Source: Syntrophaceae bacterium
GTDB taxonomy: Bacteria; Desulfobacterota; Syntrophia; Syntrophales; Smithellaceae
Assembly (NCBI GenBank): GCA_009773315.1
Contig: WRPE01000030.1
Span: forward strand, 1 to 37,020
DNA length: 37,020 nt
Direction: 5' to 3'
The translations under genes were made by a program, and so were the position numbers. Position 1 is the stretch's first letter; every line of letters begins with the position of its first letter. This document shows, piece by piece, positions 1,173 to 4,127 of this stretch. Below the pieces are notes generated by a model. That model saw only the letters and a program-made list of their open reading frames with translations. It searched no databases and was not told where the DNA came from.

Positions 1173-1532
1173 ATGATGTCACCATTGGGTCTATTACAAG
1201 AAGGAGAAACGGCGAATATCGTAGAGCACGATGCAGGGCATGGGCATGGTCACGCACATAAGCACAAACACGGGCGGCAGTTCGAACACACGCAGTATCG
1301 CGAACACGGTGAAAAGACACGCTGCGGACAATGCGATAATTGCTCCTGCCCCGGCGGAGTGCAGAACCAGACTTCGAATCATCTGATGAATATAGGACTG
1401 AGGCCGGGCAAGCTCATCGAGATGATTACAAACAGTGGAACAGGCCCGCTGGTTTTGAAGGTGGATGAGTCCCGGATAGCACTGAGCCGAGGCATGGCGA
1501 TGAAAATTTATGTACGGAGGAATGAAGAATGA
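1173..1532 (+). CDS. FeoA-domain protein with His/Cys-rich insertion
   Basis: This 119-residue protein is built on the FeoA SH3-like fold. The first strand (LGLLQEGETANIVEH, 5-19) and the rest (HLMNIGLRPGKLIEMITNSG, 70-89, to MKIYV, 110-114) match FeoA; its neighbour at 1529 is an ordinary 75-residue FeoA. Between them lies an insertion of about 50 residues with nine histidines (H19, 23, 25, 27, 29, 31, 33, 39, 45) and then C51-x2-C54-x2-C57-x-C59. It probably binds metal ions or an Fe-S cluster and acts on the cytoplasmic side of FeoB, as FeoA is thought to. The function of the insertion is inference. An AAGGAG Shine-Dalgarno precedes ATG 1173; a second ATG follows immediately. The end overlaps the next gene by four bases (ATGA), indicating translational coupling. 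Confidence 0.85.
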   Translation: MMSPLGLLQEGETANIVEHDAGHGHGHAHKHKHGRQFEHTQYREHGEKTRCGQCDNCSCPGGVQNQTSNHLMNIGLRPGKLIEMITNSGTGPLVLKVDESRIALSRGMAMKIYVRRNEE

Positions 1533-1758: not shown

Positions 1759-3942
1759 ATGACCAACAAACATAATTCAGAAAATCAAAACAACAGAGCA
1801 ATAAAGAAAAGCCTGACGATCGCGGTCGCAGGCAATCCCAACGCGGGCAAATCCACGCTGATCAATGCTATCGCGGGTACAAAGCTCCATGTCGGCAACT
1901 GGCCGGGCGTAACGGTTGAGAAAAAATCAGCAGACTTTGAGTATAAAGGACGGCGCATCACGCTGGTCGATCTGCCCGGCACTTATAGCCTTAGTCCCTA
2001 TACACAGGAAGAAGTGATCGCCCGTGACTATCTGGTGCATGAAAAACCCGACATCGTTCTCAACGTCGTCGATGCCACCAATCTGGAGCGCAATCTTTAC
2101 TTTACGTTTCAACTGTTGGAGTTGGGAATTCCTTTGGTGATGGCGCTCAACATGCACGATGAGGCCAGACAAAAAGGATTGCGCATCGATGCGGAAAAGA
2201 TGGAATCCATTCTCGGCTGCGCGGTTATTCCGACCGTGGCCACCAAACATGAAGGCATTGACCGGCTGATTGAAACCGCCATCGCCTTTGCCGATGACCC
2301 CGGCCGACACGCGCCCTGCGCCATCCCTTACGGAGCGGATATCGAAGCGGCGGTCAAGACGGTTCTCGGGGATTTGCAGGAGTATCCCCAAAATAATTCC
2401 AACAGTCTGCCAAAGCGCTGGCTCGCCCTCAAATTGATGGAGAGGGATGAACTGGCCCTGAAAGAAAGCGGGGTTCCGGCTGACGCGCCCTTTCTGACCA
2501 AGGCGACCCGGCATCTGAGACAGGCGCACGGCGAGGATATCGAAGCCCTCATGGCAGATGAACGATACGGACTGGCGGCGGGATTGACCCGTGAGGCGCT
2601 CCAAAAACCCGAAAAGAGAAAAAGGGAGTTGACCGAACGGATCGACGCCGTCGTCCTCAACCGGTTTTTGGGCATGCCCCTGTTTCTGGCGCTGATGTAT
2701 CTGGTTTTCTCTCTGACCTTTACCCTCGGAGATCCCCCCATGGGCTGGATAGAAAATTTTTTCGGGTGGTCAGGCAGCATCCTTGCGGGCTTATGGCCGG
2801 AGGGATCGGAAAGCCTGTTGAAATCGCTTCTGGTGGACGGCATCATCGGCGGTGTCGGCGGCGTCATCGTCTTCCTGCCGAACATTCTCCTGTTGTTTCT
2901 GGCTATCGCCATCCTGGAGGATTCCGGCTACATGGCCCGGGTCGCTTTCATCATGGACCGCCTGATGCACAAAATCGGCCTGCACGGCAAGAGCTTCATT
3001 CCCATGCTGATCGGGTTCGGATGCTCCGTTCCCGCAATCATGGCCACCCGTACTCTGGAGAACCGGCGGGACCGGCTGACGACCATGCTCGTGACCCCGC
3101 TGATGAGTTGCGGCGCAAGGCTGCCCATCTACCTGCTCATTATTCCGGCCTTCTTTCCCCCGGTCTGGCATGCGCCCATGCTCTGGATCATCTACGTCAT
3201 CGGCATTCTCATCGCGGTGGTCACTGCAAAACTCCTGCGCAGCACCCTCTTTAAAGGCGAATCCGTTCCGTTTGTCATGGAGCTGCCGCCGTATCGGATG
3301 CCGACGCCCAAAGGTGTACTGATCCACATGTGGGAGCGGGGATGGTTGTATCTGAAAAAAGCAGGAACCATCATTCTCGGCATCTCGATCCTCATGTGGG
3401 CCATGACCACTTTCCCCGGGCTGCCCGACCGCGACACCGCACGTTTTGCAAACGAACGGCAAGCCATCCAAGCCGCAGCCGCAGGGAAGGAAGAAAAGAG
3501 CGAGCAGATGGCCTCCATTGAGAATCAGGCGGGGGAGGAGGCGCTGCGCTACAGCATCGCAGGCCGCATCGGACAGGCCATCGAACCCATTCTCACGCCG
3601 GTGGGCTTTGATTGGAAGATAGGCACCGCGCTGATCGGAGCATTTGCCGCCAAGGAAGTCTTTGTTGCCCAGATGGGAATTATCTACTCCGTGGGGAAGG
3701 CAAACGAAGAGTCCGAAACGCTCAGGGAAAAACTTAAGAATACGTATACGCCACTGATCGGCTTCTGCATCATGCTTTTCTGTCTGATCAGCGCCCCCTG
3801 CATGGCGACCATCGCTGTGACGGGAAGAGAAAGCGGCTCTTGGAAATGGGCGATGCTGCAGCTGGGGGGGCTTACGCTTCTGGCGTATGTGTTGACTTTC
3901 ATCGTCTTTCAAACCGGCACCCTGCTTGGCGTCGGCATTTGA
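1759..3942 (+). CDS. feoB: FeoB ferrous iron transporter
   Basis: The 727-residue inner-membrane protein imports Fe(II) under Fur control. The N-terminal G domain shows G1 GNPNAGKST (25-33), the G2 region VGNWPGVTVE (45-54), G3 DLPG (71-74) and G4 NMHD (131-134), followed by the helical GDI-like region (about 170-290). The C-terminal half holds the membrane helices with two Gate regions; GFGCSVPAIMATRTLENRRD and LISAPCMATIAV carry the conserved cysteines of the translocation path. Length is near the usual 700-780. Its start is two bases after the feoA stop, with GGAGG about 13 bases upstream. The domain order is complete and nothing suggests inactivation. Confidence 0.97.
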   Translation: MTNKHNSENQNNRAIKKSLTIAVAGNPNAGKSTLINAIAGTKLHVGNWPGVTVEKKSADFEYKGRRITLVDLPGTYSLSPYTQEEVIARDYLVHEKPDIVLNVVDATNLERNLYFTFQLLELGIPLVMALNMHDEARQKGLRIDAEKMESILGCAVIPTVATKHEGIDRLIETAIAFADDPGRHAPCAIPYGADIEAAVKTVLGDLQEYPQNNSNSLPKRWLALKLMERDELALKESGVPADAPFLTKATRHLRQAHGEDIEALMADERYGLAAGLTREALQKPEKRKRELTERIDAVVLNRFLGMPLFLALMYLVFSLTFTLGDPPMGWIENFFGWSGSILAGLWPEGSESLLKSLLVDGIIGGVGGVIVFLPNILLLFLAIAILEDSGYMARVAFIMDRLMHKIGLHGKSFIPMLIGFGCSVPAIMATRTLENRRDRLTTMLVTPLMSCGARLPIYLLIIPAFFPPVWHAPMLWIIYVIGILIAVVTAKLLRSTLFKGESVPFVMELPPYRMPTPKGVLIHMWERGWLYLKKAGTIILGISILMWAMTTFPGLPDRDTARFANERQAIQAAAAGKEEKSEQMASIENQAGEEALRYSIAGRIGQAIEPILTPVGFDWKIGTALIGAFAAKEVFVAQMGIIYSVGKANEESETLREKLKNTYTPLIGFCIMLFCLISAPCMATIAVTGRESGSWKWAMLQLGGLTLLAYVLTFIVFQTGTLLGVGI

Positions 3943-3953
3943 TAGGAGACCTT

Positions 3954-4127
3954 ATGCTGGAAACAATCGTTGTTGTTGCCATCGTGGCGGTTGTCCTGGT
4001 TCTGGCGGGAAGATCATTCTACCGGACCCTGGCAGGTAAGAAAGAAGGACCGTGCTGCGGATGCACCTCAGGCAAGTGCGGAAAGAATGAAGATAAGGGG
4101 AAAGACCGGCTGGTGAGGCTTTTCTGA
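3954..4127 (+). CDS. FeoB-associated Cys-rich membrane protein
   Basis: This 57-residue protein begins 11 bases after feoB, behind a TAGGAGA Shine-Dalgarno. It has one N-terminal membrane helix (about 4-20, ETIVVVAIVAVVLVLAG), a basic patch, and then a compact cysteine cluster C34-C35-G-C37-x4-C42 before a charged tail. That layout and place match the small FeoB-associated Cys-rich membrane proteins found after feoB in many anaerobes, which may replace the Fe-S protein FeoC. Its role, perhaps redox or iron sensing or stabilising FeoB, is inferred from context. Confidence 0.8.
   Translation: MLETIVVVAIVAVVLVLAGRSFYRTLAGKKEGPCCGCTSGKCGKNEDKGKDRLVRLF

Follow-up and report, generated by a model that had tools for sequence, protein, structure and literature searches.

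Organization of the feo locus

The window analysed in this work, a stretch of 37,020 nucleotides (contig WRPE01000030.1) from a Syntrophaceae bacterium, carries a fur gene followed by a feo operon whose first gene, feoA1, encodes a FeoA protein with a Cys/His-rich insertion. The features of the locus and the evidence for each are as follows.

356-371, + strand: Fur-box-like palindrome upstream of fur, exact GATAATGATTATCATT
391-831, + strand: fur, Fur family regulator (PF01475, 118.1 bits)
1092-1109, + strand: terminator-like stem with a T tail, downstream of fur and ahead of the feo operon (consensus scan only)
1130-1148, + strand: Fur-box-like site, 43 nt before the feoA1 start (16 of 19 consensus positions)
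1173-1532, + strand: feoA1, FeoA with Cys/His-rich insertion (PF04023 match, relatives, structure model)
1221-1367, + strand: insertion region of FeoA1 from strand 1 to helix 1, residues 17-65 (low-confidence stretch of the model)
1227-1307, + strand: nine-His stretch, residues 19-45 (translation)
1323-1349, + strand: CGQCDNCSC cluster, residues 51-59 (translation)
1368-1520, + strand: FeoA core from helix 1 to the last strand, residues 66-116 (Pfam, model)
1529-1756, + strand: feoA2, an ordinary FeoA that lacks Cys and His (PF04023, 85.9 bits; sequence)
1759-3942, + strand: feoB, Fe(II) transporter (TIGR00437, 625.9 bits)
3954-4127, + strand: FeoB-associated Cys-rich protein (PF12669, 36.7 bits against a cut-off of 27, over the stretch 3945-4115; gene start picked by eye)

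The start of feoA2 overlaps the end of feoA1 by 4 nt, and feoB and then the PF12669 gene lie within a few bases of the genes preceding them, so that feoA1 is encoded with feoB, two genes upstream of it. The first-pass annotation had described a plain FeoA directly after feoA1, a small Cys-rich protein after feoB and the lack of an ordinary FeoC, and this description holds: the small protein belongs to PF12669, and no protein of the genome exceeded the cut-off of the FeoC model PF09012 (best score 11.7 bits against 21).

Exact GATAATGATTATCATT palindromes, each matching the other strand as well, occur in the window at 356-371 and 1130-1145, against a mean of 0.01 in shuffled sequence. The gap between fur and feoA1 measures 341 nt and each gene has its own Fur-box-like site; the one ahead of fur suggests self-regulation of that gene. 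Terminator-like sites numbered 7 in 3.5 kb compared with 4.1 (sd 2.1) in shuffles.

Sequence and structure model of FeoA1

The translated feoA1 product has 119 amino acids, with nine loop histidines (19, 23, 25, 27, 29, 31, 33, 39 and 45), a further histidine at position 70 and cysteines at 51, 54, 57 and 59. The Pfam FeoA model (PF04023) covers only residues 66-115 (49.6 bits, cut-off 23). In the AlphaFold2 model, built with 54 relatives, the FeoA barrel is confident (means of 88-95 over blocks of ten residues) and includes a strand at 13-19 and a helix at 66-73, between which the means fall to 47-61 (ten-residue blocks, 21-70), and the split was for this reason placed after strand 1. Translation, Pfam range and model thus agree with the proposal that the FeoA fold is split after its first strand by a His-rich, four-Cys insertion; in the model, the Cys/His stretch is a disordered loop joining strand 1 and helix 1.

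The best Foldseek matches of the model were chains of FeoA 3E19 (TM-score of 0.90 by target length for 3E19_D), followed by DtxR-type regulators and FeoA 7R7B. FeoA1 therefore has the same SH3-like barrel as known FeoA proteins (PF04023; B. fragilis FeoA 7R7B, 3E19) and is, like them, encoded with FeoB, but differs from the neighbouring feoA2 product, an ordinary FeoA, by 42 additional, Cys/His-rich residues between strand 1 and helix 1. FeoC (PF09012), too, is a small Feo partner in the cytosol and carries a Cys motif; it belongs to a different family, and FeoA1 gave no match to its model. The PF12669-type proteins, one of which is encoded in the window operon, are also small Feo proteins that have a Cys motif, but they are membrane peptides downstream of feoB whereas FeoA1 is FeoA-folded and has no evident membrane segment. 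By fold, family match and context FeoA1 is a FeoA and not a FeoC, and its loop is a new variation on FeoA; no description of a FeoA loop of this kind was found in the open-licence literature searched. A search of FeoA1 against phage families returned no matches.

The same single open reading frame recurs in other genomes, with seven relatives aligned almost over their full length at 48-70% identity, which excludes the joining of two genes or a sequencing or assembly error, the artefact foreseen in the first-pass annotation. Raw Cys+His density was rejected as proof of the loop, since the density of FeoA1 (14 Cys+His per 58 residues) is equalled by one other among the window's 258 stop-to-stop ORFs with 58 aa or more; the case for the loop consequently rests on relatives. 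That other frame, on the minus strand from 9146, has 143 residues and is a candidate ORF by the density scan only. Read in its other frames, the loop DNA encodes 3 and 2 Cys+His (forward) and 5, 13 and 6 (reverse).

Distribution of the FeoA1 subfamily

Mapping FeoA domains with such an insertion, as had been suggested, placed relatives within Syntrophales, among further families of its phylum, and in the phylum to which L003, a Nitrospirae MAG, belongs. The subfamily profile searches covered these two phyla, and a wider contig scan used a single-protein query that reaches close relatives only. Matches at E <= 1e-10 were found in 35 of 295 genomes of the L003 phylum, weaker and fused ones counted; the L003 protein itself groups with those of Syntrophales, and the bin it comes from may be mixed. 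All aligned members (54/54) match FeoA at E <= 0.01.

A loop-trimmed core model (A4) was built from members recovered by the first profile (A2), its rows retaining at most 9 residues before the end of helix 1, some of them including Cys or His. High scorers were retrieved with it in 16 of the order's 154 genomes (at least 80 bits, the next at 63) and in 9 of the 395 of the phylum sample (at least 77 bits), none of them new in either case. Because A4 recovers the same high scorers, their detection was not driven by loop composition. Three proteins of the counted set, L062, L064 and L066 (G280, G375 and G182), are missing from the A4 list at E <= 1e-13.

The counted set was obtained from 71 distinct sequences, 62 of which could be split into loop and remainder, and comprised the 56 scoring at least 60 bits (six fell below). 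The nine unsplittable rows were L005, L143 and L153 (above 60 bits), L070 and L075, whose loops are Cys/His-rich, and L068, L069, L072 and L073, which look ordinary. For L064-L066, the length and composition counts use loop borders misplaced by about two residues.

Within the window's family, FeoA matches occur in 49 of 51 genomes, mostly inside long ORFs, and the loop-bearing FeoA1 in eleven genomes, the interrupted copy of G023 included, by which the window operon is taken as a second, patchily distributed Feo system. The window's own genome has a further FeoA domain, its third, at G000:C4:100433-100633, in such a long ORF of 749 residues; by its size this is probably a FeoA-FeoB fusion, and the genome would then have two Feo systems.

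Some copies appear to be decaying. In G023 (L005/L017/L097), the FeoA1 gene has an in-frame TAA and about 4.4 kb downstream of FeoA2 contain no FeoB, and in G025 (L020) the loop FeoA breaks off behind its loop and another FeoA follows. A FeoA with a His-rich and Cys-containing loop, YGHRHCHRHRHC, was also seen in G523 (L075/L113), with a score below the limit of the counted set.

Length, ligands and composition of the loop

Relative to feoA2, the loop varies from -3 to +42 residues among the 56 members, that of the window being the longest, and reaches +20 or more in 18. Cys is present in 49 of the loops, His in 43, at least two Cys in 40 and neither residue in 4, from which we conclude that the arm is dispensable to the subfamily. 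At least three Cys together with at least five His were found in 11 of the 56, ten from Syntrophales and one, L055, from another family. A +8 loop containing Cys/His, in which CH immediately precedes helix 1, is found in many members from the L003 phylum. In the model of one such protein, residues 22-28 have confidence below 50, the helix begins at residue 32 and the mean confidence of block 31-40 is 73.

The pattern CGxCxx[CY]xC is restricted to 6 of the 56 members, every one in the window's family, and in the closest relative, L001 (69-70% identity), C57 is replaced by Tyr. This closest pair is identical in 6 of 18 Cys/His loop columns and in 16 of 29 other loop columns, so there is no single conserved loop site. 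The nine-His plus CxxCxxCxC arrangement emphasized in the first-pass annotation is therefore not a conserved site, and a strictly conserved His9-Cys4 module was rejected.

What persists is composition. Cys and His make up 15.7% of the loop residues (274/1749) and 0.6% of the remainder of the same 56 proteins (18/3238), a 28-fold excess with an odds ratio of 33. Counts were 145/1026 in the loop against 10/1969 elsewhere for the 34 sequences remaining at <80% identity, and 77/757 against 6/1621 for the 28 of these scoring below 120 bits. Dropping low-scoring rows left the enrichment unchanged: 256/1526 against 16/2888 in the 50 rows of at least 75 bits, and 102/840 against 8/2068 in the 36 of those rows with inserts shorter than 20. 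In the 37 FeoA2-type proteins of the fetched loci, Cys+His amounted to 24/2755. By counts and model, FeoA1 thus combines a folded barrel with a disordered loop enriched in His and Cys over the fold. To judge from these alignments, the composition and place of the loop are kept among relatives and its geometry is not. Variation in length and ligands had been named beforehand as an outcome that would speak against the insertion; this does apply to length and ligand positions, while the composition endures, and the proposed metal-binding role is strengthened by the excess of ligands.

Of 11 pairs for which dN/dS was computed, L016/L036 and L064/L065 were unusable, and the loop value was below 1 in eight of the other nine: 0.33 for L006/L001, 0.42 for L011/L034, 0.40 for L012/L034, 0.40 for L012/L013 (core value unusable), 0.12 for L057/L058, 0.03 for L131/L135, 0.75 for L135/L136 and 0.15 for L145/L147. 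The shorter-loop pair L137/L138 gave about 1.6. In the three usable long-loop pairs, dN/dS was 0.33-0.42 in the loop and 0.15-0.19 in the core. On a 65-column tree, the distribution of long and short loops needed 3 changes, only 1 of which is forced by the starred branches, and L055 sits among short-loop rows with supports of 91/92.

Gene order and upstream sites

In 46 of 48 fetched loci with a subfamily member of at least 60 bits, a selection from all matches, FeoA2 and FeoB directly follow FeoA1; the exceptions are L090, truncated by the end of its contig, and the apparently decayed L097. A small Cys-rich membrane protein is encoded next in many of these loci. None of the FeoB proteins of these loci has more than one Cys among its last 40 residues, a few of the ORFs being cut. 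The nearest labelled upstream gene, at any distance, is fur in 24 of the 48.

Upstream regions of 55 of the 56 members (one was too short) were scanned for Fur boxes against 200 mononucleotide shuffles. At least 14 of 19 positions matched in only 17 of the 55, and the Fur box was rejected as a general feature of the subfamily. Fifteen of these sites, with 14-17 matches, are placed between -43 and -53 and belong to the window's group (14 Syntrophales and L003), and those of L145 and L067 near -210 to -220.

Two genomes encode Fur-FeoA1 fusions of the subfamily beside feoB, G596 (L151/L223) and G617 (L153/L224), in neither of which a separate FeoA2 was labelled within the fetched 8 kb. These fusions suggest a link between FeoA1 and Fur.

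Proposed role of the FeoA1 loop

Ligand-rich loops on metal-uptake proteins have precedents, such as the His-rich loop of ZnuA, a periplasmic zinc protein with a fold unrelated to that of FeoA. According to excerpts of PMC8561739, the His-rich loops of zinc-free PA4063 are disordered and a few of their residues become ordered upon zinc binding; the disordered, ligand-rich loop on a folded metal-uptake protein recalls FeoA1, but PA4063 is periplasmic, binds zinc and has an unrelated fold. In E. coli, the Cys/His region at the C-terminus of FeoB (CCAASTTGDCH in the excerpt of PMC10647171) was proposed as a cytosolic Fe(II)-binding region (excerpts of PMC4847171 and PMC10647171). The FeoB encoded here lacks such a tail, and the ligands are on FeoA1 instead. 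For B. fragilis, excerpts of PMC8980893 describe a FeoA clamp formed by two helices, protection of clamp residues together with parts of NFeoB in a GTP-like state, and a slowing of GTP hydrolysis by FeoA, with faster hydrolysis when FeoA is removed. This contact is not directly transferable, since the window FeoB has no PxxP within its first 290 residues.

As the loop is predicted to be disordered, is rich in ligands and stands behind a Fur-box-like site beside an Fe(II) importer, we read it as an iron arm. Under this proposal, the Fur-box-like site would have FeoA1 made together with FeoB under iron starvation, and the FeoA1 barrel would dock on the GTPase domain at the cytosolic side of FeoB, by analogy with B. 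fragilis FeoA. The arm stands immediately ahead of helix 1 and is His-rich, closing with four Cys in some members of the window's family. It would bind Fe(II) loosely through His and more tightly through Cys, next to the mouth of FeoB on the cytosolic side, where it could catch and buffer incoming iron; once loaded, it might shift how FeoA1 sits on FeoB and so provide product feedback on transport. Metal binding by the loop is likely, judging by its composition, and we infer the identity of the metal, the docking on FeoB, the feedback step and hence the regulation of FeoB by FeoA1. Overall, we give about an even chance to the reading in which FeoA1, docked on FeoB, has in its loop a labile arm for Fe(II) by which iron coming in is buffered or sensed. 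A fuller version, in which the arm picks up Fe(II) coming out of FeoB and its loading both sets the FeoB GTPase and passes iron status to Fur, is possible but rather doubtful.

Instead of a labile arm, the four Cys might hold an Fe-S cluster that makes FeoA1 a substitute for FeoC, signalling the iron or oxygen state to FeoB. This idea is in keeping with the CxxCxxC that the window shares with L011, L012, L013 and L034 and with a genome lacking FeoC at the cut-off, but a cluster would call for Cys conserved across relatives, and both the restriction of the full pattern to 6/56 and the Tyr of L001 run against it, as do the lack of a FeoC match and the weakness of the only Fe-S match of FeoA1 (PF13746, 15.8 bits against 27). 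We consider it unlikely as a general function, an Fe-S cluster being perhaps present within the window's own family; a composition kept without geometry is best read, from the sequences, as a labile Fe(II) arm rather than a dedicated cluster. FeoA1 might also work mainly with Fur, as an SH3-like domain that, loaded with metal, passes iron or iron status on to the regulator, much as DtxR-type regulators carry an SH3-like domain on the same chain. The fusions in G596 and G617, the 24 of 48 loci with fur upstream and the resemblance of the model to DtxR-family chains (Foldseek ranks 5, 7 and 8) agree with such a role, which we nevertheless find improbable, given that FeoA2-FeoB follows FeoA1 in nearly twice as many loci and that in the window fur and feoA1 stand 341 nt apart, each behind its own Fur-box-like site.

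His-rich and Cys-rich loops often prefer Zn, Cu, Ni or Co, and the loop could be a sink for these metals that shields FeoB or FeoA from the wrong ones. Models of Co/Ni efflux, urease accessory and Ni/Co efflux proteins do match the loop region, weakly (10-12 bits, far under their cut-offs), but the Fur-box-like sites of 15 loci and the FeoB-type Fe(II) importer encoded in the operon point to iron, and we think such a sink quite unlikely. Least of all do we favour a low-complexity expansion devoid of function. The variable length and ligand positions, the loop dN/dS above that of the core in the three long-loop pairs and the value of about 1.6 for L137/L138 would suit it, yet Cys+His remain enriched in the reduced set of 34 sequences and in its 28 lower-scoring members, loop dN/dS is below 1 in eight of nine usable pairs and many genomes in the phylum of L003 share the short Cys-His loop, so that we hold it to be very unlikely.

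If the fuller version of the iron-arm reading is true, the two FeoA genes would be kept because they share the work, FeoA1 as the metal reader beside a plain FeoA2. In the subfamily, found in the two phyla searched, one FeoA of the pair often has a metal-ligand loop by the helix presumed to contact FeoB, and the natural long, short and ligand-free loops offer a ready series with which both the paired-FeoA role and iron reading become testable.

Regulators of the Fur-FeoA and DtxR-FeoA types share the FeoA domain with FeoA1 but have it fused to a DNA-binding regulator. Ordinary FeoA domains fused to Fur were seen in L071 and L079, and many FeoA matches in ORFs of 228-281 residues may be Fur-FeoA proteins, or DtxR-FeoA proteins as in L118 and L120.
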